Shown in pieces: positions 7,337-63,286 of a stretch of DNA of 64,000 nucleotides. The notes under the pieces were generated by a model. It did not search any database, was not told where the DNA came from, and saw only the letters and a list, made by a program, of their open reading frames with translations. Origin of the DNA: Kiloniella laminariae (GTDB lineage Bacteria; Pseudomonadota; Alphaproteobacteria; Kiloniellales; Kiloniellaceae); the NCBI RefSeq assembly GCF_027214005.1, contig NZ_JAPWGY010000001.1, forward strand, positions 868,001 to 932,000, read 5' to 3'. The position numbers and the translations under genes are program-made. Position 1 is the first letter of the stretch. The number at the start of each line of letters is the position of its first letter.

Positions 7337-8140
7337 ATGACCCTTGTGGCATGGCGTAATAAAAAAACGGGATCTGTTTGTCTTTCGCGCTTCTCTTTTG
7401 TCTGTGCCTTGATTTTCTTCGTCTTTTTCTCCGGATTTCTCTTTTTCAGCAGCACGGGCCGAGCGGAGGCTCCGCTTTCTATCGGACTTTATACCTGGGC
7501 GCCCTATACCGGAACGGATTTACCTGGAAGCGGATTTGCGACTGAGGTGATACAGGAAGGCATGAAACGGGCGGGTTATGAAACAGTGGTCAGGCCTGCA
7601 CCCTGGTCGCGGGTTCTGAAACAGGTAGAGCAGGGCAGTGTCGATATTATTCCCGGGCTGTGGTTTGCCGAAGAGCGTCTTGATATCATTGCCTATGGTC
7701 CGGTTCTGGCTTTCAACAGTCTGGTTTTGATCACCCGCAAGGATGCGGCCCGAAAGGTCGAGGCGATATCAGATCTGGCAGGGCTGGTGGTCGGGGTCGG
7801 GCGGGATTATGCCTATCCGGAAGAGTTTCTGGCAGCGGGCAATTTCAAACGCGATGAGTCCATTGATCTGGAAACCAATATCCGCAAGCTGGTTGATGGC
7901 CGGATCGATGCCACAATAGGGGATGCCTTTGTCGCCAGCTATACCAACCGCCAGATCCTGAAGAACGACGTCCCCCTGCATTATTCCAGCAAGCCTGTTG
8001 AGATCAAAAACCTTTACATAGGCATCAGTCGCCAGCGGGCGGATTACCAGATTATCCTCGACAAGTTCGAGGAAAAGCTCAGGGAAATGTGGCTGGACGG
8101 AACCTATAAGGCGATCATAAAACGCCATGGGCTGGAATAG
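7337..8140 (+). CDS. Periplasmic substrate-binding protein, SBP_bac_3 family (orphan)
   Basis: A 267-residue exported protein. The signal peptide spans residues 1 to about 39 (hydrophobic core, then GRAEA), and the mature protein is a type II periplasmic binding fold. It opens LSIGLYTWAPYTG and contains GFATEVIQEGMKRAGYE, PWSRVLKQVEQGSVDIIPG, and a C-terminal FEEKLREMWLDGTYKAI. Such proteins usually deliver amino acids or other polar solutes to ABC permeases, but none is encoded nearby. A close paralogue lies at 17543 and a more distant one at 36339. The ATG start has AGGTGA just upstream, an arrangement repeated at the paralogue. Confidence 0.88.
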   Translation: MTLVAWRNKKTGSVCLSRFSFVCALIFFVFFSGFLFFSSTGRAEAPLSIGLYTWAPYTGTDLPGSGFATEVIQEGMKRAGYETVVRPAPWSRVLKQVEQGSVDIIPGLWFAEERLDIIAYGPVLAFNSLVLITRKDAARKVEAISDLAGLVVGVGRDYAYPEEFLAAGNFKRDESIDLETNIRKLVDGRIDATIGDAFVASYTNRQILKNDVPLHYSSKPVEIKNLYIGISRQRADYQIILDKFEEKLREMWLDGTYKAIIKRHGLE

Positions 8141-8296
8141 GGCCTGCAACTTCCACTGGGCCAATATTGGAGAGTTAGTGTGACGCGCCCGGGGGGTGTG
8201 AAAGTAATTGTAACAGGGCTGGAAGGTAGCGGGGCCAGAAAGTAGAGATTTTGTCTCTCGAGCAAACGGGTCTGTACAAAGGTTAGGGCTGGCTGG

Positions 8297-47562: not shown

Positions 47563-49101
47563 TTGAGCTCAGATATCCATATTGTTGACTTGTTTTCTGG
47601 GCCTGGAGGTCTTGGTGAAGGTTTTTGTTCCGCGTCTGTGCTAAATACTGAACAGAAATATAGACTCGATGTGTCGATCGAAAAAGATTTGGCTGCTTAT
47701 AGGACACTTACTCTTCGTTCATTTCTGCGTAAATTCGACGAATATCCGCCAGAGTACTACAGTTGGCTGGCGAGTAACTCAAAAGAACCTGACTGGTCAA
47801 AGTTGTATCCTACCCAATGGGAAGAGGCTCAACGTGAAGTATGGTGTGCGGAGCTGGGGACTTCTAAGACCGCAGAAATGCTTTCACAAAGGATTCAAGA
47901 GATAAAGGCCGTTGCAGGTAGTCAGACGTTATTAATTGGCGGGCCACCGTGTCAGGCTTATTCGTTAGTGGGCAGGGCTCGTAACGCTGGAATAAAAGCT
48001 TACAAACCAAGTAGAGATCAGCGACATTTTTTGTACCGGGAGTATTGTCGCGTTTTATCTGATTTCTCTCCCAGCATATTTGTCATGGAGAATGTGAAAG
48101 GAATACTTTCATCTTCAGTAGAAGGTTCAATAATCTTTGAAGCTGTTTTGAGTGATTTGGAGGCTGCAGGGGAAGGTTATACTCTATTTGCGCTATCTCG
48201 TGCTGATCGATTGTGCAATAGACCTTCTCCAAAAGATTTTATTCTTAGATCGGAAAGCTTTGGTGTTCCTCAAGGGCGGCATAGAGTTATTATCGTTGGA
48301 ATAAAAAGATCGATTGCGGATAGATTACCTCCTGAACTCATACCTGTTCTTAATAAGCATATTCATCAGTCATGTGTGAAAGATGTTCTTGGAGGGATGC
48401 CTGAACTTAGAAGTGGCCTTAGCCGGAATGATGAAAAATTGGCTTGGTATGATGCGCTTGCTGTAGCTATCGACGAAGTGAATAATTGTCTTTCCGATTA
48501 TATGGGCAACAATAAAGAAAAATTTCTTGACGAGTTAAGGAGAGTAGAGAAAACCTTAAAAAATCCAAATAAAGAGCGTATATCACATTCCTCTTCGAGT
48601 TTTCTAAAAAGTATTTCGCAAGAGCTCTGTAACTTCTTAAGTGATGAGCGATTGAGCAAGCTATCTTGCAATGAAACTCGTGGGCATATGATTCCTGATC
48701 TTACACGATATCTTTTTGCTAGTTGTTTCGCAAAGGCCGAAAATAGAAGTCCCAAAGCTCCAGAGTTTCCTTCAAAACTCGCCCCTAGTCATGCAAACTG
48801 GGAGAGTGGCAAGTTTAACGATCGATTCCGCGTCCAGTGTTGGGATTCGCCGGCAACAACGGTTACAAGTCATATTTCAAAAGATGGGCACTATTACATC
48901 CATCCCGATGCTGCTCAATGTCGTAGTTTAACAGTCAGAGAGGCGGCGAGACTTCAAACATTCCCTGACAATTATCATTTTTTAGGCAGTCGGACTCAAC
49001 AATTTGTCCAAGTAGGAAACGCAGTTCCACCATATTTAGCTAAGCAAATCGCCGACGCTTTGCTCCCAGTTTTTAAATATATTGATACCTCTGGGTTGTA
49101 G
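47563..49101 (+). CDS. DNA C5-cytosine methyltransferase (Dcm type)
   Basis: A 512-residue enzyme with the ordered C5-methylase motifs: I (IVDLFSGPGGLGEGF, 7-21), IV (GGPPCQAYS, catalytic Cys130), VI (MENVKG), VIII (VPQGRHRVIIVG) and IX-X (RSLTVREAARLQTF then QVGNAVPP). The variable region between about 260 and 430 is long and contains its target-recognition domain; the recognised site cannot be read. The start is TTG 47563 with GAAGG 7 nt upstream. Low GC compared with the flanks. The next two genes run in the same direction, separated by 78 bp. No cognate endonuclease is present. Confidence 0.93.
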   Translation: MSSDIHIVDLFSGPGGLGEGFCSASVLNTEQKYRLDVSIEKDLAAYRTLTLRSFLRKFDEYPPEYYSWLASNSKEPDWSKLYPTQWEEAQREVWCAELGTSKTAEMLSQRIQEIKAVAGSQTLLIGGPPCQAYSLVGRARNAGIKAYKPSRDQRHFLYREYCRVLSDFSPSIFVMENVKGILSSSVEGSIIFEAVLSDLEAAGEGYTLFALSRADRLCNRPSPKDFILRSESFGVPQGRHRVIIVGIKRSIADRLPPELIPVLNKHIHQSCVKDVLGGMPELRSGLSRNDEKLAWYDALAVAIDEVNNCLSDYMGNNKEKFLDELRRVEKTLKNPNKERISHSSSSFLKSISQELCNFLSDERLSKLSCNETRGHMIPDLTRYLFASCFAKAENRSPKAPEFPSKLAPSHANWESGKFNDRFRVQCWDSPATTVTSHISKDGHYYIHPDAAQCRSLTVREAARLQTFPDNYHFLGSRTQQFVQVGNAVPPYLAKQIADALLPVFKYIDTSGL

Positions 49102-49179
49102 TGACAGCTTTCGCGTAGGTGGTAATGCTTGCCAATTCTTATTATATATGCCATTGAAATTTATGAATTTGGAGTTCTC

Positions 49180-51333
49180 ATGAAAGCATCATTTAAGCCA
49201 CGTGCGAGACTACTGAAATTGTTGGGTGATCAGTTGATTGGTACACCTCAACTGGCGGTGTTCGAGCTGGTTAAGAACTCTTACGATGCCGATGCGGACA
49301 GAGTTGAAATTACGATTCTGAATCCCGAAGATGTTTCAACGGCAAGTGTTGAAATCACTGACATCGGTGGCGAAGGCATGAGCCTTGATACAATTGTTAA
49401 TATATGGCTAGAGCCGGGGGCGGATCACAAGCAGACGAAGCGCAACCAAGGTAAGCGCACGGCTAAGCATAATAGATTACCCCTAGGTGAAAAAGGTGTA
49501 GGTCGATTTGCAGTCCATAAACTCGGACAGATCATTGAACTAACTACTAAAAATAAAAATAATCCTGAAATTTTTTTGAAGATCGATTGGGCTATTCTTG
49601 ATAGCTGTAAATATATCGAAGATGCAGAAATCGTGGTTGAAGAGCGGGAGATGCCACAAGTATTCACGAATGGAAGTACTGGGACGAGGATTGTCATAAA
49701 AGAACTGAATTCCAGCCTTACACGCGGAGATGTTAGAAATCTTTATCGAAACATTCAGTCAATCAAATCCCCGTTTGAGTTTGAGGCCTATCGACTAGAT
49801 AAATCAGCTTCAACCTTTGACGTTTCGTTGAGTGTCCCAGGTCATGATGACTGGACGATTGATCTTTTTGATCTGAAAGCGATAATTGAGCAATCTTTGT
49901 TCAGGTTTTCATTTTTGTTTTCTGAAGATAAGTGGTCATGGGACTATCAGTTTGCTCCTAACGAACAACTAAAAAAACAATTTAAAGTTGAAGGTCGCAA
50001 AGCGTCCGAGACAGACAGTTATCTTGAGTTGCCGAAAGGAAAGGTTGATCTGGAAAAAAATTTTCACGCAATTTACCAAACTGATCGTACTGATTTTTTA
50101 AAAGATCTTGGTCCTATATTAGGTGAGGTTTATGTCTTTGATTTTGACGCTGCGTTAGGGGAACAGAATGCCATCAAGAGGTGGTTGAGCGAAAATCAGG
50201 GAATACGTGTCTATCGCGATGGTATTCGTGTTTACAACTATGGCGAACCTAATGATGACTGGCTCGAGATGGACAGTCGGCGAGTAAACCGACTTGGTAA
50301 AGGTATTAATCGGAGAATTGCGGTAGGAGCTATTTCGCTAGAACTTGAGCATTGCCCAAATCTTATCGAAAAAACTAACAGGGAAGGCTTCATAGAAAAT
50401 GAAACTTTTTCCAAACTAAAAGCAGTCGTAAATTCTGCCCTCGGAAAACTGGAGAGCCTTAGACAGATCGACAAAGATAGACTTCGCCAAGTAACAAAAA
50501 AGTCCACCTCAATATCTTTTCTTGGGATAGACAATCCGGTTGATGAGTTGAAGCAAATTGCGATTGCTAACGGTTGGGAAGAACAGTTGGCTCCTGCCAT
50601 TAGACGTACTGAGAAACGCTACAATGAGATGCAAGACATCATGTTAACTTCAGGTATGGCTGGATTGAATATGACGCTCGCATTTCATGAGATACAGCAT
50701 GGTATATCTGATGCAAAAAAGAACCTGCTTGCAGGTAAAGATATTAGCATAGTGATAGAGCAGTTTGACCGATTTGAACTGCTCTTGGATACCTATGCAA
50801 ACTTGCTCAAGCAGGAGAAAGCTCGTGAATGGGAGCTAGCATCAATTCTGCAATCCAACGTGGATTTAGCCGATGTTCGCTTCACATTGCATGATATTAT
50901 TTATAGTTGCCCTGTCCTAACCGGGGAGCACCCGAACTTTATTATTAAGGCTCAACGAAACCTTATCATTAGTGCAGTTAATAACCTCATTGATAATTCG
51001 ATTTACTGGTTGGACAAGCGATGGGGTGGGGAGCTTAGCAAAAAATACATTCACATAGGTGTCAGTGAAGAGTTCGATAAAGGCCCTGCCATCGTAATCG
51101 CTGACAACGGGTCTGGGTGGCGAGATATAAGTAAAGGTGAAATGATTAAGCCATTCAGAACAACTAAGTCTGGAGGCATGGGTATTGGATTGTACTATAC
51201 GGATACGGTGATGCAGATGCTTGGAGGCGAACTTGTATTACTCGATCAGGGTGAAATTGATGGAGTTCCAGAGCAGGCAGACGGCGCAATTGTAGCGCTT
51301 GTCTTTAACGGAGGCACGCCTTGCAAGAAGTGA
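49180..51333 (+). CDS. Soluble protein with two GHKL ATPase domains; histidine-kinase-like
   Basis: A 717-residue protein. The N-terminal GHKL ATPase (HATPase_c_3) has FELVKNSYDADA (Asn33), DIGGEGMS (Asp61) and LGEKGVGRFAVHKLG. A middle region of about 350 residues follows. The C-terminus repeats a GHKL fold of the histidine kinase kind: AFHEIQHGI (His503, Glu504) on a helix, NLIDNSIYWL (Asn606), IADNGSGW (Asp642) and TTKSGGMGIGLYY. No membrane segment. It combines a MutL/MORC/Hsp90-like ATPase with a kinase core. The next gene encodes a receiver-like protein and overlaps by 13 nt. The start ATG 49180 has GGAG 5 nt before it. AT-rich. Confidence 0.85.
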   Translation: MKASFKPRARLLKLLGDQLIGTPQLAVFELVKNSYDADADRVEITILNPEDVSTASVEITDIGGEGMSLDTIVNIWLEPGADHKQTKRNQGKRTAKHNRLPLGEKGVGRFAVHKLGQIIELTTKNKNNPEIFLKIDWAILDSCKYIEDAEIVVEEREMPQVFTNGSTGTRIVIKELNSSLTRGDVRNLYRNIQSIKSPFEFEAYRLDKSASTFDVSLSVPGHDDWTIDLFDLKAIIEQSLFRFSFLFSEDKWSWDYQFAPNEQLKKQFKVEGRKASETDSYLELPKGKVDLEKNFHAIYQTDRTDFLKDLGPILGEVYVFDFDAALGEQNAIKRWLSENQGIRVYRDGIRVYNYGEPNDDWLEMDSRRVNRLGKGINRRIAVGAISLELEHCPNLIEKTNREGFIENETFSKLKAVVNSALGKLESLRQIDKDRLRQVTKKSTSISFLGIDNPVDELKQIAIANGWEEQLAPAIRRTEKRYNEMQDIMLTSGMAGLNMTLAFHEIQHGISDAKKNLLAGKDISIVIEQFDRFELLLDTYANLLKQEKAREWELASILQSNVDLADVRFTLHDIIYSCPVLTGEHPNFIIKAQRNLIISAVNNLIDNSIYWLDKRWGGELSKKYIHIGVSEEFDKGPAIVIADNGSGWRDISKGEMIKPFRTTKSGGMGIGLYYTDTVMQMLGGELVLLDQGEIDGVPEQADGAIVALVFNGGTPCKK

Positions 51334-52721
51334 TTAATGCCGTTGTAATTGATGATCAGATCAAAGATATCATTGGAGTAACAACCGCATTAGCTGAGCT
51401 GGGCATATCAACGCTTCCTGTGCATTACAAGGATCCAACCTTAGCGCGAGAGTTGTGCACGAAGGTATCGACGGCTTCTCCTAGAGTGATCATTACCGAT
51501 ATTCAACTCAGAGATGGTGGTATGGAACCAACAAAGTCGGACTTATCGAATGTTGCTGCTTGTTTGGGTAATATCGTCAGAGAAACAAAGGGTCCCTACG
51601 TAGTATTGGCTTGGACTTCGAAACCGGAAGCGCTTGGTGTTTTAAGGGCGAGGGTTGAAGAATATTTCACAAAATCCGGCATCAGGTTGCCGATGTACTT
51701 TGATAGTATCTGCAAAAATGAATGTAGTATCGGTGACAATGAGTATTCAGCAGCAGCGATACTCAAACAGTTCCAAACGCATTTGGAGGGCCAAGTATCT
51801 GTCAGAGCTCTTATGCATTGGGAGTGTAGTGTATTACAGGCTGCGATCGAAAGTGTTAATACACTATCAAGTCTTGACGAGGATACACTACCCCAGAACT
51901 TGAAGTCGCTCGCTATCAGTGTTGCCGGAAGTAACTTGAGGGGCTTTGAAGCGACAGCTATTAATGAGGCATTTTCATACGTTCTTAAGGACAAACTGGG
52001 GCTTCTTAGCCTTACTGATAACACTCAGGAAATTTGGAATAATGTGTTTGCTGAGGCTGCTGGCGTCGTGCATGAAACTTCGAAACATCAGCTAAACACA
52101 ATCTTACATATAGAAACCTCTCCACAAGATAAAATCATTTGCCCTGGAGATGTATGGATTTCTGAAAATCCTAAAACATTGTTTCAAAAGGTTGATGTTG
52201 GAAAAGAAGCGAACAATCAAGCGGAACGAATGAAGGACGAATTTCTTACCCTGACACAGAAGGGACACGCTCTAAACCAGAAAATAAGGGGTGAGACCGA
52301 TACAGAAAAAAAGTCAGGGCTCAAAACACAGTATCAAGAACTTTGTTCCACCCCGCTTCGTGTTGCAAAAACTGCTTGCAAAATAGCTATGGTAGAAATC
52401 AGCCCAGCGTGTGATTTTGCCAATCAAAAAAAACCTTTAAAAACGATAGCACTTGGCATCTTGGTTCCAGTGACGAGCATAACAAACGAAGTTCATTTAA
52501 AACAATCGGACTCAACAATAGTAGTCAAAATCATGCTCGATGGTACGAACTATCTCTTAGGATTTTCCTCTAAATATATCACAGCATTGTCCGAAAAAAT
52601 GATATTATCAGATGAATTGAAATTGACAAAAAAACTGCGAATTCGTGAGAGTTTATTGCAGAGTTGGATCCATCGGTTTTCAGCATATAACTCAAGAATT
52701 GGTACAATTTCTTTTCAATAA
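51321..52721 (+). CDS. Receiver-like protein with an unknown C-terminal domain
   Basis: A 466-residue protein. The first 125 residues look like a response-regulator receiver: NAVVIDDQIKD (acidic pair Asp11-Asp12), VIITDIQLRDGG (possible phospho-acceptor Asp60), and YVVLAWTSKPEAL (Thr/Ser position). The remaining 340 residues are unknown; they include a motif EISPACDFANQKK (Cys364-Asp365), a helical hydrophilic stretch (about 295-345) and a C-terminal basic region. No DNA-binding domain is recognised. TTG 51321 has GGAGG 6 nt upstream and lies inside the end of the kinase gene, implying coupled translation. Partner of the dual-GHKL protein by position. Confidence 0.75.
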   Translation: MQEVINAVVIDDQIKDIIGVTTALAELGISTLPVHYKDPTLARELCTKVSTASPRVIITDIQLRDGGMEPTKSDLSNVAACLGNIVRETKGPYVVLAWTSKPEALGVLRARVEEYFTKSGIRLPMYFDSICKNECSIGDNEYSAAAILKQFQTHLEGQVSVRALMHWECSVLQAAIESVNTLSSLDEDTLPQNLKSLAISVAGSNLRGFEATAINEAFSYVLKDKLGLLSLTDNTQEIWNNVFAEAAGVVHETSKHQLNTILHIETSPQDKIICPGDVWISENPKTLFQKVDVGKEANNQAERMKDEFLTLTQKGHALNQKIRGETDTEKKSGLKTQYQELCSTPLRVAKTACKIAMVEISPACDFANQKKPLKTIALGILVPVTSITNEVHLKQSDSTIVVKIMLDGTNYLLGFSSKYITALSEKMILSDELKLTKKLRIRESLLQSWIHRFSAYNSRIGTISFQ

Positions 52722-52775: not shown

Positions 52776-52942
52776 TCACACCCAATCAACCGCTGCTTTC
52801 GGGGCAAGGAGGATGGCGAGGTCGCGGGGGTGGGTCAGGGCGCTGTAGAGGGTTTGTTTTTCCTCTGGCGTGGGGGCGCCCGGGAAGTTCGGGGTGTCTG
52901 TTGCGCTGGCTGTGGCTTTGCTGTCGGTTTTTGCCGGGGTCG
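52776..52942 (-). pseudogene. Duplicated 3' end of the topoisomerase-helicase gene
   Basis: This segment encodes about 50 residues nearly identical to the C-terminus of the protein at 54634-59061 (shared PNFPGAPTPEEKQTLYSALT and HPRDLAILLAPK), then breaks off. It has no start of its own and is a remnant or a duplicated junction. The stretch 52943-53242 beyond it contains no gene that I can support. Confidence 0.85.
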
Positions 52943-53242
52943 AATGATCGACTTCAACTCCCTGTTCTTCCATCATTTCTTCGAGATCTCTCTAGCTGAT
53001 ACCATATTTGCAGTACCAACGGACACATTGAAGGATGACCGTGCCATGATAGTGACGCCACCTGAACTCAGATATCGAGAAATCCCCCTATAGAAAATGA
53101 AAACCTGAAGAGGAATAACCTGGAGTTAAGTTCTTGCAACGGAGCCATAAATATTGAAAGACCAAAGATATTTTGTCTTCAAGTCAACTTTGCAAAAGCG
53201 CCAGTGAGTTCTGGCTGATGGGGCCTCAGCCCAAAAACCATA

Positions 53243-53683
53243 TCACCGATCCAGATGCGTCTGCGTTACAACATGGGTTTGAACTTTGTCGACCAGCTCG
53301 TGATCGCTGATCAGGCTAGTGATATCTCCGAGGCGCTCCACATTGGACACCTGCAGTAACAGCGTCACATCAAGCTCTCCCGTCAATGACCAGAATTTTC
53401 GCAGCTCTGGCAAATGCCCCAACGCGGCCACCAGCTTTTTACAATGAGCGCCTTTCAGATTAAGGATCATGATCACCTTGATCCCCGCCTCCTCATCACC
53501 GCGCTTCATGTCAATGGTATAGCGTTTGATGACCTGATCTTTTTCCATCCGCGCAATGCGCTGGCGTACTGCCGTGGGCGACAGAGTGATCTGCCGCGCC
53601 AGTTCGCTGATCGGCAGGCGGGCATCGCGTTCCAGCAAAGCCAGGATTTTTTGGTCGCGCTCATCAAGTTTTTTCATCGACAT
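53243..53683 (-). CDS. Lrp/AsnC family transcriptional regulator
   Basis: A 146-residue regulator. The N-terminal winged helix reads KLDERDQKILALLERDARLP then SELARQITLSPTAVRQRIARM; the C-terminal RAM domain reads KVIMILNLKGAHCKKLVAALG and TGELDVTLLLQV. Such proteins form octamers that bind amino acids. It is transcribed divergently from an isochorismatase-type gene across a 141-bp gap and probably controls it. Starts at ATG 53683 or 53677 are both possible. The pair lies between the two copies of the 167-bp repeat. Confidence 0.9.
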   Translation of the reverse strand: MSMKKLDERDQKILALLERDARLPISELARQITLSPTAVRQRIARMEKDQVIKRYTIDMKRGDEEAGIKVIMILNLKGAHCKKLVAALGHLPELRKFWSLTGELDVTLLLQVSNVERLGDITSLISDHELVDKVQTHVVTQTHLDR

Positions 53684-53824
53684 ATGTAAATTCAACTTTT
53701 CACCTGGTGGATCTGACTGGAACGCATCGTCTTTGGTCAAACCGTCATATTGCCACTGAACCCCAAATTTCAGACCATTGTGACAAGAGGTTTACTCCAT
53801 ATCACGACCATAAGGAACTCAACA

Positions 53825-54382
53825 ATGACCGACAGTAATAACGCCACCCTCATCCTGGTTGATTGCCAGGAAGGTTTTCATGACTGGGATTATTGGGGGG
53901 GAAACAGGAACAATCCGGATGTGGAGCAAAATTTAAAATCCCTGCTGGAATTCTGGCGTGACAACAACCGGCCCGTCGCCCACGTCATTCACCACAGCCT
54001 TAACCCGGAAAGCCCGCTGCGTACTGACAAACCCACGGGCAAAATCATGGCATCGCTCACCCCTAAAAAAGGTGAACCCGTGATCATCAAACGAGCGAAT
54101 TCAGCTTTCGCCGGCACTGACCTTGATGGCTATCTACGTCGCATAAATACCAACAGGTTGGTCATCGCCGGACTGACCACCAACCATTGCGTTGGCACCT
54201 CGGTAAGAATGGCTGAAAATATGGGCTACACAGTCAAGATGGTAGCAGACGCTTGCGCCACTTTCGACCGCGTGGGTCCCACCGGCAAAATATACAAAGC
54301 CCAACAAATTCACGAAATGGCTCTTGCAGACCTGCACGGAGAATTTTGCCAGGTCGTGGATGTAGCGGAGGTTGTGGGGTAG
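53825..54382 (+). CDS. Isochorismatase-family cysteine hydrolase
   Basis: A 185-residue enzyme with the catalytic triad Asp13 (ILVDCQEGF), Lys89 (VIIKRANSAF) and Cys122 (LTTNHCVGTSVRMA). Residues ADACATFDR complete the family pattern. Members hydrolyse nicotinamide, isochorismate, N-carbamoylsarcosine or related amides; the substrate is not decided here. AAGGA lies 8 nt before ATG 53825. Divergent from the Lrp-type regulator, which suggests an amino-acid- or amide-responsive switch. Confidence 0.9.
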   Translation: MTDSNNATLILVDCQEGFHDWDYWGGNRNNPDVEQNLKSLLEFWRDNNRPVAHVIHHSLNPESPLRTDKPTGKIMASLTPKKGEPVIIKRANSAFAGTDLDGYLRRINTNRLVIAGLTTNHCVGTSVRMAENMGYTVKMVADACATFDRVGPTGKIYKAQQIHEMALADLHGEFCQVVDVAEVVG

Positions 54383-54633
54383 CCACTAATCCTCGTCATC
54401 AATAAAAAATATCAACAAAAAAATTTATCGTGACGATCAGGTGCCCGGATATGGACTTGCGGTCTATATCCGGGCAGCTGGTCCCTTCGTTGTATTGGAT
54501 CATGGGGATAGATCTTCCGCGCCTTGGCGGCCTCTGGAATTCTCAGTTGATGACTGCTTATGGCACAAAGCAGTCTTTTAATTACTGCCTGACAGGTTTC
54601 CGTCAAACCTGCTCTACCAGAAAAAACTCTCCC

Positions 54634-54800
54634 CTAAACCCAGTCGACGGCGGATTTGGGGGCGAGGAGGATGGCGAGGTCGCGGGGGTGGGTCAGGGCG
54701 CTGTAGAGGGTTTGTTTTTCCTCTGGCGTGGGGGCGCCCGGGAAGTTCGGGGTGTCTGTTGCGCTGGCTGTGCCTTTGTTGCCGCTTTTTGCCGGGGTCG
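54634..54800. repeat. 167-bp segment duplicated at 52776-52942
   Basis: This is the full-length gene's own 3' end. Its central 120 bp are almost base-for-base identical to the copy at 52776-52942, same orientation, 1.86 kb apart. Confidence 0.9.
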
Positions 54801-57800
54801 GGGCGATGATCAGGGCGGCGGTGCTTTGCTGGGCGCGGCTGCGCGGCGCGTGCAGGGCGTAGGCAAGGGACAGGCGGTCGAGTTCGTCAAAGGCGAGGTC
54901 GTGGCTTTTGCCCTGGAAGTCGATGGTCACCCGGCCTGTGTCGAGCCTCGGGCCACTATCCAACTGGGGGCCAGTCTCCAGCCGGGGGGCTGCATCCAAC
55001 TGCGGACCCGTGTCCGGTCGGGAGTTGTTTTCCAGATTTTGCGCGGATTCAGATGTCGCGTCTGTTGCCGCTTCTGTTACTGGTGACGTTCCGGCGGTCA
55101 GGGCGGCGGTGGCGGATACAGGCCGGGCAGACTGTGGGGTCAGGGGCGGCAGGTCATCGCGGGTGATGTCCTTGATGATACCACAGTCGCCCGCGAGCAG
55201 GTCGCGCTCGGGGTCATTATCGCTCACTGTAACCTTGTCACCAACCCTGAAACGCCAGCCGAAACGATCGACAAACAGGCCGTCTTCGGGCGGGTTGAGC
55301 AGCTGTTGCAGCCGCAGGTTCAGCTTGCGCGGGCCAAGCTCGCCGACCGCGGAAAGACAGATGATCTGCAGGTCCCTGAGCGGATCAAGCTTGAAGGATT
55401 TTGGCAGGCGGTTGGTGATGATTTCGGTGATCTTGCGCAGGCTGTCGGCCGGATCTGCGGCCTCGACCAGATAAAAGCTGCCCTGGGCGTTGGGCCCGGT
55501 TTTCAGGGTCACGGGCTTGCCATCCTTGATCCGCGAGGGGTGGGGATGTTTGTCCTCGGCGATTTTTTGCTGCATTTCTGCAGCTGGCTTTTCGCGCTTC
55601 AGGTTGGGCGGTCTGCCGTGGAACAGGCGCAGCTGGTTATCGGACAGGCGGTTGTGTTCCAGCTCTGGCGGCAGATCCCACAGCGCCAGCCAGGGCACAT
55701 CGGCCTGACGGGTCAGTTCTTCAAGCACCCGGCCCGATCCGGCGGCGGGCAGGCGGGTCATGTCATCGATCAGCAGCAGTCCGGCGTCTTCGGGCAGGGC
55801 GTCGAGTGCCGCCAGCAGCAGGGCGCGATCCATCAGCGCGGCAGAGGTAATCACCAGCAGCTGGCAGTCCAGCGGCTTGCGGTTTGTGTGTTTGAAGCTG
55901 CCTGTTTTGACGTTGTAATCCAGCAGCTTGACCAGAGAGGTGACGCCGAGGTCCTTGAGTGCCGGGTCTTTTGCCAGATCACGGGTCAGCGCGCGGGCCT
56001 CGCCAGCGCTGGTCGAGGTCAGGGCGATTTTGAAGCCCTTGGCTGAAAGGATGCGCAGGAAGGCGCGGGTGACGGTCATCTTGCCTGTGTTCGGGCTGCC
56101 ATTGAGCAGGCGGATCTTGCCCGTGTCGGGTTTGGCGAGCAGGCCGATCACCGTCTGTTTCTGGTTGATGGTCAGGGGGATCTTGCCCTTGTCCCGCACC
56201 CAGTCCACCGCCTTGTCGGCTTCGATATCCGCCCAGAGCGCGGTGCCAGTGCGCAAGGTCTTGAGCTGTTTGCCGATCTTTTGTTCCGCCTGCCAGTGAT
56301 CGCGCAGGATCAGCTCTTCGGCCTCGTAACCAGCAGGTTTTTCTTCATAGCGTTTGCGGTCCTTGACCAGATGGATCTGTTTGTCATCCAGTTCCGCCTG
56401 AAGCGCCGCTGTCAGCAGATCCAGCGGCAGGCCGAGGCGTTTTTCCAGCTGGCTGAGCAGGGCGTTCTTGCCGCGGTAATCCGCCGCCTGGGCCAGCGCG
56501 TGATAAAGCGCGGCACGGGCGCGGGGCAGGCTGTTGGCTTCCCGGCCCAGATGCCTGGCCAGGGTATCGGCCATGTCAAAGGGCAGGCCGCGGGTGAGGC
56601 GCAGGAAACAATAGGGATCGGCGCTGAGCAGATCGGCAATCTCGGCAGCTGTCTTGTCGGGCCAGGCCTGAAGCAGGCGCAGGGCGCGGCCGGGCTCAAC
56701 CCCGTGGCTGTGCAGAAAGCCGGAGAGTTCCTGCCCCCTGCGGCGTTCGTTGACCCAGTCGTTGAGCAAAGTGAGCTTGGCCTTGCTCAGGCCGAGGTCC
56801 TTGGCCTGAGCTTCCAGCTTTTCCGGTTGCTCGCAGATGACGGTGAAAGTCTCCGGCCCAAAGCTTTCCGCCAGCTGCTTGGCCGCCTTGGCCCCCAGTC
56901 CCCTGATCATGCCGCCGGAGAGCTGTTTTTCTATGCTGGCGATCTGGCGCTCGCGGACTTTCTCGGGACTTTCCGTCTTGCCCTTGCCGCCGAGATGTTC
57001 ATCGAGAAAGTCGCGGCAGGTCTCAAAGTCCGAGGTATAACCCTTGGGCAGTTTGAGGCCGCGGGCGGCGGCGATGGACTTTGCCGTTTCCTTCATCTTG
57101 TCGGTCGGTTTGCCCCGTCCGGCCCCCTTGGGCATGGCAACCCCGGTGTTGATCTTGGGGGCCGAGGCGGCGTTGGTCTTGATGATGTTGATCAGGCGGG
57201 CGGTGTCGTTGCCGATATCATCCCAGACCTTGCGGGCCGACTGTTTGCCCTCAAGCACGTCATCAAGATGCATTTCCCAGATCGCGGTCACGCCGGGATC
57301 AACCAGTTCAGGCGCGGCGGTCTTCAGCGTGGTGTAAAGCGTCAGGCCTGCCTCGGTCGGGATGATGTGCTTGCCGCTCTGGGCCAGAAAGTTCTGTACC
57401 TTCAGCCCGGTGATCACCGAGGCACGGGTGGCCGGGGTGCCGATGCCCTTGGCTTCCTTGAGCCGTTCTTTCAGCTCCTTGTCCTCGACAAAACGCCAGG
57501 CGTTCTGCATGGCATCAATCAGCGTGCCTTCGTTATATCTGGGCGGGGCCTTGGTTTTTTTGCTGTCGGTGGTCACGGGGGTCAGCGTGGCCAGGTCGCC
57601 GTCCTGCACCGGGGGCAGCTCGCGCCCGTCTTCGCTGGCGTCCTCGTCCTTTTTCTCCATCACATCGGTGTAGACCGCTTTCCAGCCCGGCTCCTTGGGA
57701 ATGTTCCCCGTGACCTTGAAGTCGAGGATCTTTTCCTTTCCCGCGCTGCCGTCCGGATTGGGCAGCGTCACAGGCACATCCATGGCCACGGTGGTGGACT

Positions 57801-59061
57801 CATAGATATAATCCGGCAGGAGAATGGCGAGGTAGGAACTGGCGACCAGATCAAACATGCGTTGTTCGTCTTCGGTCAGGCGCGGATAGATCGTGGTGAT
57901 CCGGTCCATGGTGTTCTTGTTCGGCACAATCGCGTGGTGCGAAACCCCCTTGAGCCCGGCGTCCGAGAAATGCCCGCTTTTGCCCTTGCGCACTTCGGGT
58001 TTGCTCAGGTCGATGTTCTGGTACTGCGGCAGACCCGTCAGGCCCTGAATGATCTCGCCGATGTCCTCGATCTGGTTTTCCGCCAGATAGCGAGATTCCG
58101 CGCGGGGGTAGGTCTGGATCTTCTTGCCTTCGCCGTCGTACAGTTCCTGCGCGATGTTCAGGGTCTTGTCAGCGGTCCAGCCCCAGCGGCGCGCGCAGAT
58201 CTTTTGCAGTTCCGGCAGATCGAGCAGGCGCGGCGGTTTGGTCGACTTGATCTTCTTCTCGGCCTTGATCGGCCCCTGATAGCCCTCGACCGCCGCGCGC
58301 AGGGCCTCGGCCTGATCCGGGTCGAGGATCTTGTCTTTCGGCGCATGGCGCAGGTCCAGCGTGCCGCTTTCTTCCCTCGGTTCGGCCTCTGTGCCCAGCT
58401 GCAGCGTGACATTGGCCGTGGCGACGAGGTGGAAATAGTCCTGGGGTGTGAAGTCCCTGATTTCCAGCTCGCGCATGCAGACAATCGCCATGGTCGGGGT
58501 CTTGACCCGGCCAATGCCGATGGCCCCGTACTGTCCGGGCTGTTTCAAGGCCACCGTCGCCGCGCGGGTCAGCGACAGGTTATAGACCTGATCGGCCTGC
58601 TGGCGCACAATCGCCGCCTGTCCGAGATTGAAATACTTCTCGTTCGGTTCCAGATGGGCAAAGGCATGACGCAGGGTCTTTTCATCCTGCGCGGTGAACA
58701 TGGCCCGTTCGACCTTGCCGGAAAACTTGTAGTGTCGCAGGATTTCTTCGCCGATCAGCTGGCCTTCGCGGTCACAGTCGGTCGCGATAATGACGCGGGT
58801 GGCGGTCTTGAGCGCATCGGCAATGGCCTGCAGCTTTGACTTGGCCGAGGGCGAGGCATCGGGCGCGGGGCAGGTGGGGTAAAAATCATCGGGCTTGAGC
58901 AGATCAAAGGACCAGCGCCCCCAGCTGCTTTCGACCTGCTGCGGTTCCTGCAGACTCAGCAGGTGACCCTCTGCCGGAAGAATGCGCCCGTAGTCATTGC
59001 CAATCGCCGCCTGGACATCCCGCTTCTGAGAGGTCTTTTCCGTAATAACTATGGTCGACAA
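54634..59061 (-). CDS. Topoisomerase III fused to a degenerate RecD2-like helicase
   Basis: A 1475-residue protein. Residues 1 to about 620 are a type IA topoisomerase: TOPRIM with VITEKTSQ and ATDCDREGQLIGEE, catalytic Tyr318 in QTYPRAESRY, and GIGTPATRASVI. From about 700 there are helix-hairpin-helix elements, a RecD2 N-terminal region (DPYCFLRLTRGLPFDMADTL), a P-loop LLNGSPNTGKMT (Lys994) and Walker B LLLIDDMTRL (Asp1099-Asp1100). In the C-terminal part the RecD2 signature HKSQGSE is replaced by HAPRSRAQQS (about 1400), and the arginine-finger block reads LYSALTHPRD. The topoisomerase looks active, the helicase probably not. TTG start with AAGGA 8 nt upstream. A 3'-end copy lies at 52776. 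Confidence 0.88.
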   Translation of the reverse strand: MSTIVITEKTSQKRDVQAAIGNDYGRILPAEGHLLSLQEPQQVESSWGRWSFDLLKPDDFYPTCPAPDASPSAKSKLQAIADALKTATRVIIATDCDREGQLIGEEILRHYKFSGKVERAMFTAQDEKTLRHAFAHLEPNEKYFNLGQAAIVRQQADQVYNLSLTRAATVALKQPGQYGAIGIGRVKTPTMAIVCMRELEIRDFTPQDYFHLVATANVTLQLGTEAEPREESGTLDLRHAPKDKILDPDQAEALRAAVEGYQGPIKAEKKIKSTKPPRLLDLPELQKICARRWGWTADKTLNIAQELYDGEGKKIQTYPRAESRYLAENQIEDIGEIIQGLTGLPQYQNIDLSKPEVRKGKSGHFSDAGLKGVSHHAIVPNKNTMDRITTIYPRLTEDEQRMFDLVASSYLAILLPDYIYESTTVAMDVPVTLPNPDGSAGKEKILDFKVTGNIPKEPGWKAVYTDVMEKKDEDASEDGRELPPVQDGDLATLTPVTTDSKKTKAPPRYNEGTLIDAMQNAWRFVEDKELKERLKEAKGIGTPATRASVITGLKVQNFLAQSGKHIIPTEAGLTLYTTLKTAAPELVDPGVTAIWEMHLDDVLEGKQSARKVWDDIGNDTARLINIIKTNAASAPKINTGVAMPKGAGRGKPTDKMKETAKSIAAARGLKLPKGYTSDFETCRDFLDEHLGGKGKTESPEKVRERQIASIEKQLSGGMIRGLGAKAAKQLAESFGPETFTVICEQPEKLEAQAKDLGLSKAKLTLLNDWVNERRRGQELSGFLHSHGVEPGRALRLLQAWPDKTAAEIADLLSADPYCFLRLTRGLPFDMADTLARHLGREANSLPRARAALYHALAQAADYRGKNALLSQLEKRLGLPLDLLTAALQAELDDKQIHLVKDRKRYEEKPAGYEAEELILRDHWQAEQKIGKQLKTLRTGTALWADIEADKAVDWVRDKGKIPLTINQKQTVIGLLAKPDTGKIRLLNGSPNTGKMTVTRAFLRILSAKGFKIALTSTSAGEARALTRDLAKDPALKDLGVTSLVKLLDYNVKTGSFKHTNRKPLDCQLLVITSAALMDRALLLAALDALPEDAGLLLIDDMTRLPAAGSGRVLEELTRQADVPWLALWDLPPELEHNRLSDNQLRLFHGRPPNLKREKPAAEMQQKIAEDKHPHPSRIKDGKPVTLKTGPNAQGSFYLVEAADPADSLRKITEIITNRLPKSFKLDPLRDLQIICLSAVGELGPRKLNLRLQQLLNPPEDGLFVDRFGWRFRVGDKVTVSDNDPERDLLAGDCGIIKDITRDDLPPLTPQSARPVSATAALTAGTSPVTEAATDATSESAQNLENNSRPDTGPQLDAAPRLETGPQLDSGPRLDTGRVTIDFQGKSHDLAFDELDRLSLAYALHAPRSRAQQSTAALIIAPTPAKSGNKGTASATDTPNFPGAPTPEEKQTLYSALTHPRDLAILLAPKSAVDWV

Positions 59062-59253
59062 TCCGCAATCCTTAACTCACTAACCCAACCGTCCATGCTT
59101 TTAGCCCAAAGCCGACAAAAGCATAAGTCCCTAATAGAGATTTTTTTAACCCGGGGAGTTATGAGGATGGGTTTTGGTGGCGGTTTTGTCTTGGTGATTT
59201 TATCTGGCCGGTTTTGGACTTTGTCAGTCCGGGCTGGTTCGGGAGGACGGTCA

Positions 59254-59331
59254 GGAGTGACGAGCAGCGGGGATGGGCGCAGAAGGGACGGGGGAACCGC
59301 CTTTTCCGAAAGGGAATGCTTCCCTTCCGGG
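59254..59331. repeat. 78-bp direct repeat, copy 1
   Basis: Identical over 78 bp to 61030-61107. It contains a hairpin core AAGGGAA-TGC-TTCCCTT. The surrounding gap 59062-59402 otherwise holds only promoter-type sequence. Confidence 0.95.
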
Positions 59332-59402
59332 TCCTCCCGATAATGTACCGTTGCTTTTTTCTATCTCAGGCTGCATTGTTTTTGTGTGATTTCAATCGGG
59401 GT

Positions 59403-61007
59403 ATGGGGATGCAGGTGAGGCAGGCACAAAAAAGCCAGTGGGTTGTTGAGTTCAGAAGAACGTTTTCCCCACGATTTTTGTTGATGAGCGGCCTGATGAC
59501 GGCTGGATTGTTGGGGATGAAAGTGCCTGCCGTGTCTGCTGCGGAAACATTGCCAGAGTTTACCGAAGCTGTGGCCTATCAATGTGCGTTTTACAATCTT
59601 GATGATCTTGAGACAGACGCAGGGAGCTGTCGGGATTTCTTTTTGCAGGCCCGCGTGATTATCGATCCGCTTTTTGGGGTTTTTGATCCTGCTGTTTACA
59701 AAGATCTCGCTGGCAAGCTTGGTCTGAATGAAAGGGTTGCCTCCAGTCTTCTTTTCTTTTCAACTCCTGAAGGGAGGGAGCGCCAGCAACAAAGGTGGAA
59801 TGACAGTGCTGCCCAGAGCATGTTGCAACAACTGGTGCTGCTGGCTGAAGTTCGTAAGGCCGATTGGCCCGAAATCACCGGATTTGCAGAGCTCAGGAGA
59901 AAAATATCAGATGGTGAAGCAAATCGTTTTCATAAAGATTATATCAATCTGTTCAAAGAGCTTGAGGTGATCGGGCAAAAGGAACTGTCGGCGAACCCGG
60001 TTATGGCTTCTGCCCTTTATTCGGTTTTGGGTGCTGATGCCCTGACCATTTATAACACTAGCCAGGGGCGTCAGCTGGAAGCCGCCCGGTACTATGGCAA
60101 GGCCGCGGAAGCTGTCGCGGGAATATCAGACTATCACCGGTATCTGTTTATGCGTCGGGAAGCTTATGCACATGTTGTCTATGGTATAAGGGCCCAGGAT
60201 TATGAGGAGGTTAAAACCGGAAGTGATGCCTATAATACCCTCTCGTTACGACTGATACTCCAAGGTGTTGCCGATGAGGGAAGCTATTGGCCCGAAACCA
60301 TGATGGGCTATGCATATGTGCAGTCCATCCTTGCGGCCATGACGGGTGATCCTTCCTATTATGCAGAGGCCCTTGAGGCTTATCAGGAGGTTGTTGCGGC
60401 AAGCTCACCAGAAAATCATTTGCCAGAAAATCATTTGCCAGAAAATCATTTGTATGACTGGGCGGCTGCCCAATTTGCAATGGCCGGAATTGAATATAAC
60501 CTGGCCGAATTGACCGGAATAAACAGACATCTTGTTGCCTCTGTCGCCAGATATCAGGACGTCATGACGGCTTTGCCGAATAGCTCCTGGTTCTGGAAAG
60601 ATGCTTTGCGAGGGCAGATTAAAGGCCTAAATCTCTTGATGGCTGTAGAAAATAACTCGGATTATCTTGAAGAAGCCCTTGTTGCTTTTGAGCTGCTGGA
60701 CAGCCTCGTAATTGATGATGAAGACATCTATAGTAAAATTTACTGGGCAGAAGGAAAAGACGGGCATGGCTCCATCCTTCACAGACTGGGCGTTGCCAAG
60801 AAGAAAACTGATTATTTGAGGCAGGCCTTGCGGATCAAAGCTGATGCCTATCAATTCTATCTTGATAATCCTGATATCAGCAAATCAATCGCGGCCAGTT
60901 CAAACTTTGATCCTGAAAAACCGGGATATGAAGAGCAACTGGGGTTAATCCAGAAAGATATCGCCCGCATTCAATCCGATTTAAAAAATCTGGAACAGGG
61001 TAATTGA
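59403..61007 (+). CDS. Exported TPR-like protein of unknown function
   Basis: A 534-residue protein with a signal peptide (core LMSGLMTAGLLGMKVPA, ending VSAAE). The mature chain is all-helical with TPR-like pairs (EAARYYGKAAEAVAGISDYH; PSYYAEALEAYQEVVAAS). Near residue 340 it has three PENHL pentapeptides from a 15-bp tandem repeat. I cannot assign a family. It is framed by the perfect 78-bp repeats and faces away from the topoisomerase gene. ATG 59403 (or 59409) is the best start. Confidence 0.65.
   Translation: MGMQVRQAQKSQWVVEFRRTFSPRFLLMSGLMTAGLLGMKVPAVSAAETLPEFTEAVAYQCAFYNLDDLETDAGSCRDFFLQARVIIDPLFGVFDPAVYKDLAGKLGLNERVASSLLFFSTPEGRERQQQRWNDSAAQSMLQQLVLLAEVRKADWPEITGFAELRRKISDGEANRFHKDYINLFKELEVIGQKELSANPVMASALYSVLGADALTIYNTSQGRQLEAARYYGKAAEAVAGISDYHRYLFMRREAYAHVVYGIRAQDYEEVKTGSDAYNTLSLRLILQGVADEGSYWPETMMGYAYVQSILAAMTGDPSYYAEALEAYQEVVAASSPENHLPENHLPENHLYDWAAAQFAMAGIEYNLAELTGINRHLVASVARYQDVMTALPNSSWFWKDALRGQIKGLNLLMAVENNSDYLEEALVAFELLDSLVIDDEDIYSKIYWAEGKDGHGSILHRLGVAKKKTDYLRQALRIKADAYQFYLDNPDISKSIAASSNFDPEKPGYEEQLGLIQKDIARIQSDLKNLEQGN
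60408..60452 (+). repeat. Three tandem 15-bp units inside the TPR-like gene
   Basis: CCAGAAAATCATTTG three times, encoding PENHLPENHLPENHL. The reading frame is preserved whatever the copy number. Confidence 0.9.
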
Positions 61008-61029
61008 GTTTGTGAAAATGGGGCGGCCG

Positions 61030-61107
61030 GGAGTGACGAGCAGCGGGGATGGGCGCAGAAGGGACGGGGGAACCGCCTTTTCCGAAAGGGAATGCTTCCC
61101 TTCCGGG
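61030..61107. repeat. 78-bp direct repeat, copy 2
   Basis: Exact copy of 59254-59331. It begins 22 bp after the stop of the TPR-like gene, so its hairpin may end that transcript. Confidence 0.95.
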
Positions 61108-61214
61108 CCATCCGGTTTTGATTATGTTGTCTTGTGCATGATGAATTGAGTGGCGGCTCTAGCTCGCTTAAAATTCTGTTCAGTCTATTGATCTTGAACG
61201 GTTTTGGAGGGGTT

Positions 61215-61772
61215 GTGCAGCAGAAGTCAAAACCGGAAGCCGGGAAGGCCGGTGCGTCAGATCCTGACAAGGCATCTGAAAATCTACAGACGAAGTCCAC
61301 CGTAAAGTCCAGAGTAAAGCCCAACACAAGATTATCTGTGCGGCAAAGCCGCTTTGTTGCGGAGTATCTGATTGATCTCAATGCCACACAGGCGGCGATC
61401 CGGGCGGGCTATTCCGAGGCGGGAGCGCAGCAGAGCGGCAGCCGGGTTCTGTCCATGCCAGCGGTGCGCTTGGCGGTGGATCAGGCGTTGGCGGAACGAT
61501 CCGAACGGCTGAAGATTGATGCGGACTATGTATTGCGCGGGGCGGTCGAGCTGTTCGAACGCTGTATGCAGCGCAGCCCGGTGCCTGATGCGGCGGGGGA
61601 ATACAAGTTCCAGTACGCCGGGGCGGGCAAGGCGCTGGAGCTGATCGGCAAACATGTTGCGGTGCAGGCCTTCAAGGAACGCGTTGATGTCGGCATCGAA
61701 AGCGCCTTGATGGAACGCCTCGCCCGCGGGCGCAAGCGGGTGCAGGGGACAGCCCCCGACAAGGCCGACTGA
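61215..61772 (+). CDS. Phage terminase small subunit
   Basis: A 185-residue protein. The core LSVRQSRFVAEYLIDLNATQ then AAIRAGYSEAGAQQSGSRVL is the DNA-binding block of the Terminase_2 (TerS) family, followed by a helical oligomerisation region and a basic tail (RLARGRKRVQG). It would bind the packaging site and feed TerL. GTG 61215 has GGAGG 4 nt upstream; a longer reading from 61134 adds a hydrophobic leader unlike TerS. TerL follows directly, so this is a packaging operon. Confidence 0.85.
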   Translation: MQQKSKPEAGKAGASDPDKASENLQTKSTVKSRVKPNTRLSVRQSRFVAEYLIDLNATQAAIRAGYSEAGAQQSGSRVLSMPAVRLAVDQALAERSERLKIDADYVLRGAVELFERCMQRSPVPDAAGEYKFQYAGAGKALELIGKHVAVQAFKERVDVGIESALMERLARGRKRVQGTAPDKAD

Positions 61773-61828
61773 CCCGCCTTGCGGGCTTGTTTAAGAGATT
61801 TCATAACATCACAGGATTGGAACCGCCT

Positions 61829-63286
61829 ATGGCCAGGGTTGATCTGGACATTGCCGAGGATTGTGCGCGTTTTTATGCTGATCCGCTGGGGTTTGTGCTT
61901 TGGGCTTTTGACTGGGGCCGGGGCGATCTGGCGGATTTCGCCGGGCCGCGTGCCTGGCAGCGCGAATATCTGGCCCATCTGGGCGAGCAAATCCGCAGCA
62001 AGGGTTTTGACGGCGTGCATCCCGTTGCGCCAACCGATATTGCCACGGCATCAGGGCACGGTATTGGCAAGTCGGCCATGTCGGCCTGGCTGATCCTGTT
62101 TATTCTCTCGACCCGGCCCTTTGCCAAGGGTGTCGTGACATCGAACACCGGGGATCAGCTGCGGACCAAGACCTGGGCCGAGCTGGGCAAGTGGCATCGT
62201 CGTTGCCTGACCGGGCACTGGTTTCAGTACACCGCCAGCAAGGGCAACATGTCGCTGAGCCACAAAAGCCACGGCGAGAGCTGGCGCTGTGATGCCCAGA
62301 CCTGCCGCGAGGAAAATTCCGAAAGCTTTGCCGGGCTGCACGCCGCCAACTCGACGCCCTTTTACCTGTTTGATGAAGCATCGGCAGTACCGGATAAAAT
62401 CTGGGAGGTGTCGGACGGGGGCCTGACCGATGGCGAACCGATGCGTTTTGTCTTTGGCAACCCGACGCGCAATTCCGGGCGCTTTTTCGAATGTTTCAAC
62501 CGCCTGCGCCACCGCTGGCACAGCCGCCAGATCGACAGCCGCGCGGTCGAAGGCACAAATGCCGCGCTGATGCAGCAGTGGGTCGAGGACTATGGCGAGG
62601 ACAGCGATTTTGTTCGTGTGCGGGTGCGCGGGGTGTTCCCGCGGGCGGGCTCGACCCAGTTTATCTCTGGCCAGCTGGTGGCCGAGGCCCAGGCGCGCAA
62701 CCTGCCGCCACAGGCCGGGCAGGCGATTGTTATCGGTGTCGATGTGGCAAGGTTTGGTGATGACCAGTCGGTGATCCTGATCCGTCAGGGGCGCAAGCTG
62801 CTGGAAATCCGCAAATACCGGGTTGATACCATGGCGCTGGCCAGCTTTGTGATCGAGGCCATCGGGCAGTACAAACCCGACGGGGTGCTGGTCGACGGGG
62901 TCGGGGTTGGCGGCGGTGTGGTCGATCGGCTGCACCAGCTGGGCCATGATGTGATCGACGTCAATGCCGGGGCGGCGGCGCAGGACCAGAAGACCTACCT
63001 CAACAAACGCGCCGAAATGTGGGGTCGCCTGCGCGACTGGCTCAAATCAGGCGATATTCCCGCCGACGACCCGGAACTGGAAACAGATCTGACCGGGATC
63101 GAGTACGGCTTTGATGCCAAAAACCGCCTGCAGCTGGAGAAAAAAGCCGATATGAAAAAGCGCGGCCTGCACTCGCCCGACGTCGCCGACGCGCTGGCCC
63201 TGACCTTCGCCGAACAGGTGGTCAAATGGGGCGACGATATCGGCGACTTCGATACGGCGATTATGGATTACGAACCGGGAGGGTAA
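61829..63286 (+). CDS. Phage terminase large subunit
   Basis: A 485-residue packaging motor. The ATPase half has Walker A GHGIGKS (Lys81), Walker B FYLFDEASAV (Asp182-Glu183) and a coupling region around FGNPTRNSGRF. The nuclease half, RNase H fold, has IGVDVARFGDDQSV (Asp305), VDGVGVGGGVVDRL and HSPDVADALALTF. All catalytic acids are visible, so it may be functional. ATG 61829 is the start suggested by the domain; an upstream TTG at 61787 is possible. Only TerS and TerL are seen; no portal, capsid or integrase lies in the window. Confidence 0.88.
   Translation: MARVDLDIAEDCARFYADPLGFVLWAFDWGRGDLADFAGPRAWQREYLAHLGEQIRSKGFDGVHPVAPTDIATASGHGIGKSAMSAWLILFILSTRPFAKGVVTSNTGDQLRTKTWAELGKWHRRCLTGHWFQYTASKGNMSLSHKSHGESWRCDAQTCREENSESFAGLHAANSTPFYLFDEASAVPDKIWEVSDGGLTDGEPMRFVFGNPTRNSGRFFECFNRLRHRWHSRQIDSRAVEGTNAALMQQWVEDYGEDSDFVRVRVRGVFPRAGSTQFISGQLVAEAQARNLPPQAGQAIVIGVDVARFGDDQSVILIRQGRKLLEIRKYRVDTMALASFVIEAIGQYKPDGVLVDGVGVGGGVVDRLHQLGHDVIDVNAGAAAQDQKTYLNKRAEMWGRLRDWLKSGDIPADDPELETDLTGIEYGFDAKNRLQLEKKADMKKRGLHSPDVADALALTFAEQVVKWGDDIGDFDTAIMDYEPGG

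Follow-up and report, generated by a model that had tools for sequence, protein, structure and literature searches.

The fusion gene and its surroundings

The window (the whole 64,000-nucleotide stretch of Kiloniella DNA analyzed here) carries on its reverse strand, at 54634..59061, a gene for a protein of 1,475 amino acids. The reading frame has no internal stop and was recovered uninterrupted in a whole-genome search, and its TTG start codon is preceded by an AAGGA-like site. Pfam places Toprim at residues 3-112, Topoisom_bac at 142-612, HHH_RecD2 at 777-864, AAA_30 at 966-1122, and SH3_13 at 1247-1302, the last 0.7 bits below the Pfam cut-off. Among NCBIfam models, topoisomerase III fits the first half best and RecD2 the second; none of the scores reaches the curated cut-off of its model. 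Support beyond chance comes from the E values of HHH_RecD2 (7.5e-14) and TIGR01448 (1.5e-73, below the curated cut-off) and from a junction string that is identical in all 12 fusions checked. Judged by sequence, the protein consists of an intact type IA enzyme of the topoisomerase III type (residues 1-690) and a derivative of the RecD2 helicase (residues from about 691 to 1475). The preliminary description of the locus, topoisomerase III fused to an eroded RecD2-like helicase, is thus borne out by the Pfam and NCBIfam matches and by the single 1,475-residue frame.

The closest homologue is found in K. laminariae DSM 19542 (88% over the protein). A low-complexity insert that is predicted to be disordered (residues 1306-1366; 54964..55146, reverse strand) occurs only in these two proteins. 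The gene is single in its own genome except for a 56-residue copy of its end. At the nucleotide level, a 163-nt copy (93% identical) of the 3' end, 54638-54800, lies 1,858 nt downstream at 52780-52942, and between both copies are genes for an AsnC-type regulator and an isochorismatase-type protein, as if DNA had been inserted at the end of the gene. An Rfam search of window positions 53000-62000 gave zero matches.

Further away on the forward strand, positions 47563-52721 encode three proteins: a C5-cytosine methyltransferase, one with a pair of GHKL-type ATPase domains, and one of 466 residues without Pfam match. These genes do not align to K. laminariae at this locus and are possibly a defense or modification module. 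On the other side of the fusion, a forward-strand frame of 597 residues (59214-61007), without Pfam or PHROG match, separates it from terS. Most of this frame (59340-61077) is unaligned with K. laminariae, so it looks inserted.

A phage-type terminase pair adjoins the fusion, divergently transcribed, in all eight Kiloniella loci that were compared, that of the window included. The pair starts a podovirus-like cluster with a head-tail adaptor, a major head protein, tail proteins, an internal virion protein, a tail fiber, and an endolysin; from terS and terL onward, it occupies 61134-63286 of the window on the forward strand and continues in L130, L131, and L139 (G000 C11, to about 969043). Adaptor identity between distant Kiloniella species (83-85%) equals that of TopA (85%), and omega for the major head protein and the adaptor is 0.003-0.038 where computable. 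No integrase or replication family was found among 28 scanned proteins (27 of the cluster stretch and one inserted frame). The Kiloniella cluster looks vertically inherited, selected, and domesticated, and it is a candidate for a podovirus-type gene-transfer agent. Of the 9 Kiloniella genomes, 7 have the adaptor gene; it was found in none of the three tested Sneathiella-order genomes that carry the fusion, and the Aestuariispira relative is about 45-46% identical to it. The association of the fusion with the cluster therefore does not hold across genera, and we do not base the function of the fusion on it. Aestuariispira has another, different podovirus-like cluster some 10 kb downstream of its fusion gene (L136, L137; G249:C2:183461-205748), which makes this a second fusion locus near phage-type genes. 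A DEAD-box gene was rejected as a constant neighbor: it stands beside the fusion in G206 and Aestuariispira and not in G448.

The topoisomerase half

The TOPRIM domain (PF01751, residues 3-112; 58726..59055, reverse strand) contains E8 and D95-x-D97-x-E99, and the type IA core (PF01131, E 2e-85, residues 142-612; 57226..58638, reverse strand) contains the catalytic Tyr318 (58108..58110, reverse strand) in QTYPRAESRYL, which aligns to TYPRSDCRYL of Escherichia coli topoisomerase III. Both Pfam matches are above their cut-offs, and all five residues, whose retention had been pointed out from the window alone, are unchanged in 11 of 11 aligned fusions; the half has what defines a type IA DNA topoisomerase. 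The closest solved structures are those of E. coli topoisomerase III (1i7d, 1d6m; 204 bits), and the best topoisomerase I reaches 84 bits. TIGR01056 (topB), though among the best models for the fusion, scores 395 bits, below its cut-off of 515.75 bits. In comparison with topoisomerase III, the fusion adds about 785 C-terminal residues from RecD2. Besides the fusion, the topoisomerase half matches only TopA in Kiloniella, and no second TopB was found there. From its sequence, this half should be able to cut, pass, and reseal single strands.

The RecD2 half keeps its predicted fold and has lost its motor motifs

An AlphaFold2 model of the fused half, built from 11 aligned fusions (mean pLDDT 75.8), has the RecD2 fold, with 3e1s, 3gp8, and 3gpl as best matches. 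The top Foldseek match is Deinococcus radiodurans RecD2 3gpl (E 4e-27); against 3e1s, Z is 32.5 over 481 residues with an rmsd of 4.1, and the best non-RecD chain reaches Z 24.9. It is therefore predicted that the RecD2 fold is kept. HHH_RecD2 (PF14490; 56470..56733, reverse strand) and SH3_13 (PF18335, 40.3 bits against a cut-off of 41; 55156..55323, reverse strand) are likewise common to the fusion and RecD2 (SF1B). On the other hand, the fusion is without the N-terminal region of stand-alone RecD2 (the first about 110 residues), and it scores 248 bits with TIGR01448, for which the cut-off is 500.

Motifs were compared column by column between 12 distinct fusions and 28 stand-alone RecD2s (27 alphaproteobacterial and 1 from another class of the phylum), with D. 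radiodurans RecD2 as an additional reference. The intact SF1B motifs of RecD2 are not found in the fusions. While each of the following residues is present in 28 of 28 stand-alone proteins, the P-loop Lys is kept by 8 of the 12 fusions, the Thr after it by 1, the motif Ia Gly by none, the Walker-B Asp by 6, the Walker-B Glu by none, the motif III Gly by 1, the motif IV Arg by none, the motif V His and first Gly by none, and the motif VI Arg by 1. Two more distinct fusions, the contig-edge piece L091 and the IMG/VR contig L129, are also without the Walker-B Glu, which is hence missing in 14 of 14 (Kiloniella, Sneathiella-type, and Aestuariispira).

The alignment also corrects the assignment of motifs in the window protein (all on the reverse strand). 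The P-loop remnant GSPNTGKM (residues 988-995; 56077..56100) has kept its lysine, K994, as the preliminary description said, and has lost the following Thr. The same description read Walker B as DD, which is wrong: this DD belongs to LLIDDMTRLP (about 1096-1105; 55747..55776), the counterpart of motif III LLVGDxDQLP. The true Walker B position is LLVITSAALM (about 1068-1077; 55831..55860), where both acids of RecD2 LLVVDETSM are gone. For the motif V remnant (residues 1402-1414; 54820..54858), the letters had been given correctly and the register had not, with H-K-S-Q-G-S-E now aligned to P-R-S-R-A-Q-Q (1406-1412). The arginine-finger segment is altered as claimed, the motif VI remnant LYSALTHPRDLAILL (residues 1452-1466; 54664..54708) having H1458 in place of the arginine.

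In SF1 helicases, losing the Walker-B Glu plus motifs IV-VI abolishes ATP hydrolysis. We strongly infer from these alignments that the helicase motor of the fusion is dead and would not hydrolyze ATP; the earlier suspicion of a dead motor agrees with the absence of the Walker-B Glu in all distinct fusions checked. Fusions with intact motifs were not found in the class sample of 385 genomes, whose four fusions (G000, G004, G206, and G249) are all eroded, and in a phylum sample of 398 genomes (E at most 1e-40), the sole genome with a fusion is that of the window. Since every relative checked is both eroded and in frame, we reject decay confined to this strain, and likewise a sequencing fault, as the cause. 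A helicase fold that is kept, as predicted, while the catalytic motifs are lost across the clade is what characterizes a pseudohelicase.

Purifying selection on the fused half

We estimated omega by the NG86 method for the fused half (residues 691-1475) and the topoisomerase half (residues 1-640); some values were not computable, and the L039-L040 pair was saturated. Comparison of the window with K. laminariae gives an omega of 0.282 for the fused half and 0.065 for the topoisomerase half; four other Kiloniella pairs give 0.085-0.115 and 0.018-0.025, respectively. Intact stand-alone RecD2s give 0.064-0.085 (six pairs). The fused half is under purifying selection. Because its omega is low yet higher than that of intact RecD2, it appears constrained, though more loosely than an active RecD2. 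The frame is uninterrupted in 13 of 14 distinct fusions, and that of L091 is open up to the contig edge.

Retention was also counted over 112 RecD2-invariant columns from the junction onward. The fusions keep 53% of the 60 columns outside motifs and 31% of the 52 columns inside them (permutation p 0.0006; the columns are not independent). Outside motifs, retention is highest in the HhH/HHH region (67%) and lowest at the C-terminal end (13%); the motif V-VI end is the worst-kept part of the fused half.

Distribution and origin

The fusion is present in 8 of 9 Kiloniella genomes, the ninth (G005) being 77% complete, and in 0 of 52 other genomes of the order Kiloniellales. It occurs in 4 of 25 genomes of the order of G206, one member of which is titled Sneathiella (one of the four is a contig-edge piece), in 1 of 43 genomes of the order of Aestuariispira (G249), and in 4 of 385 genomes of the class sample. 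None of the 9 Kiloniella genomes has a RecD2 match above the TIGR01448 cut-off; a single additional RecD2-like frame in K. litopenaei (G004; 739 residues, 296 bits) is below it.

Besides sharing the junction string, the fusions form one clade in the tree of the topoisomerase half and in that of the helicase half; long branches occur in both trees, and a long-branch warning applies to that of the topoisomerase half. Inside the genus Kiloniella, the topoisomerase half and TopA are similarly conserved: identity to K. litopenaei is 86% for the former and 85% for the latter, and identity to K. laminariae is 96% and 94%. In comparisons across genera, the topoisomerase half has 75-77% identity and TopA 58-61%. 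This difference, together with the patchy presence of the fusion, argues that the fusion spread partly by horizontal transfer between genera.

Azospirillum, Bradyrhizobium, Sulfitobacter, Roseomonas, and Methylosinus have plasmids that encode stand-alone proteins related to the topoisomerase half at about 50% identity, and RecD2 relatives are found on other alphaproteobacterial plasmids. In G119, an integrase gene, topB, and an intact recD2 are consecutive on one strand, unfused. A standing topB-recD2 gene pair was nevertheless rejected as the precursor because it was seen only this once: no such partner was found next to the gene in the other TopB and RecD2 stretches compared or in five RecD2 plasmids, and some of the stretches are short. 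In G482 (L088:716-12789), an intact stand-alone recD2 (8004-10235) lies between two oppositely oriented copies of three insertion-sequence-like frames, in a composite-transposon-like arrangement. A phage origin was rejected as well, since the match reaches 80% coverage of the protein in none of the 51 matching phage records. The fusion is also found on two IMG/VR contigs; one of them has exactly the fused half of K. litopenaei, so at least this contig looks like a bacterial chromosome called a provirus.

Function of the fused half

The best explanation, which is based on in silico evidence (fusion, motif loss, selection, predicted fold, and one clade), is that an element-type topB and recD2 were fused a single time, that the fusion was spread partly by HGT, and that it is now a topoisomerase with an ATP-independent pseudohelicase arm; we regard this as probable. 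Under this scenario, (i) the two genes would be of the kinds seen on alphaproteobacterial plasmids and elements, and the topoisomerase would have replaced the N-terminal region of RecD2 while the HhH/HHH, RecA1, SH3, and RecA2 parts remained; (ii) the fusion would have moved among Kiloniella, Sneathiella-type, and Aestuariispira lineages; and (iii) the ATPase motifs would have been lost with frame and fold retained, leaving a pseudohelicase. The HhH region and the helicase-fold cleft may then bind and orient single-stranded or forked DNA, which would be the substrate of the enzyme, without ATP hydrolysis, and the arm may present it to the topoisomerase gate, which would cut, pass, and reseal a strand. 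Candidate outcomes are decatenation and the resolution of replication or recombination intermediates. We infer a DNA-binding arm as a role that fits the purifying selection, the predicted RecD2 fold, and the HhH/HHH region being the best kept; the role of a regulator fits the same observations.

Published work bears on parts of this scheme. Topoisomerase III is reported to act as a decatenase at available single-stranded regions and to be stimulated in vitro by RecQ (PMC7140829), and forks and unstructured single strands are the preferred substrates of Bacillus subtilis RecD2 (PMC12143592, in whose text a term search gave no occurrence of "topoisomerase"). Our own analysis compared the fusion with reverse gyrase, a likeness suggested in the preliminary description: TIGR01054 gives 54.9 bits against a cut-off of 471.7. 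The helicase of reverse gyrase is N-terminal and of another superfamily than RecD2. A type IA topoisomerase is likewise joined to, or works with, a helicase in reverse gyrase and in pairs of topoisomerase III with RecQ-family helicases (PMC7140829, PMC4109787), but there the helicase is an active motor. The likeness therefore holds as a loose analogy and fails in the helicase superfamily, the order of the halves, which is reversed, and the motor, whose motifs are lost. PriA of D. radiodurans, an SF2-type protein, stands alone and is not fused to a topoisomerase. In its clade, the helicase motifs are reported to be degenerate while the protein is kept, and it still binds DNA (PMC4504706), which provides a precedent for a pseudohelicase that retains DNA binding; its lack of ATPase activity was measured, whereas the loss of the motor in the fusion is deduced from sequence.

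Could the fused half serve as a protein-docking or autoregulatory domain, by scaffolding a partner or by covering the topoisomerase gate like a lid? A predicted fold that is kept with nearly all catalytic columns lost would suit such a role, as would conserved blocks outside the catalytic motifs, e.g., KPLDCQLL and NRLPKxFK. However, the best-kept part is HhH/HHH, which is a DNA-binding fold, and the gene neighborhood varies between genera, so we consider this role unlikely. Less likely still, ATP might be bound as a static or switch-like ligand, or a residual ATPase might drive a slow reverse-gyrase-like machine. Five Kiloniella fusions combine the P-loop Lys with D-Q or D-R at Walker B, and several of them read GTGK with DQ, which is the pattern of hydrolysis-dead, binding-competent mutants; given the lysine in 8 of 12 fusions, ATP binding without hydrolysis is possible. 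Against this stand the P-loop destroyed in L039, L040, G206, and L091 and the near-complete loss, described above, of the Thr after the lysine, the Walker-B Glu, and the residues of motifs IV to VI. It is very improbable that the fused half is decaying as a passenger that does little or nothing, because, in spite of the lower identity of this half (36-51%, against 75-86% for the topoisomerase half, between the window and 9 of 10 homologues) and an omega that reaches about four times the value for intact RecD2, omega is well under 1 in five close pairs, the frames are maintained, and the loss is concentrated in catalytic columns rather than even.

Returning to the pseudohelicase arm, one may tentatively go further and think of the fusion as a self-contained, ATP-independent decatenase or dissolvase, in which the dead RecD2 would be a fixed strand-guiding clamp and the geometry of helicase binding, not the motor, would be what the topoisomerase needs. 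A literature search by titles and abstract openings found no published description of a topoisomerase-pseudohelicase fusion. The parts are ordinary and their assembly is unusual: a conserved topoisomerase and a disarmed helicase, for which the function of an arm is plausible. The usual explanation for pairs of a topoisomerase and a helicase is that the helicase works as a motor and supplies the topoisomerase with strands. With a selected fusion in which the motor is off, whether the role of a helicase can be structural becomes directly testable. In this clade, the label "RecD-like helicase" stands for a protein that is very likely unable to unwind DNA.
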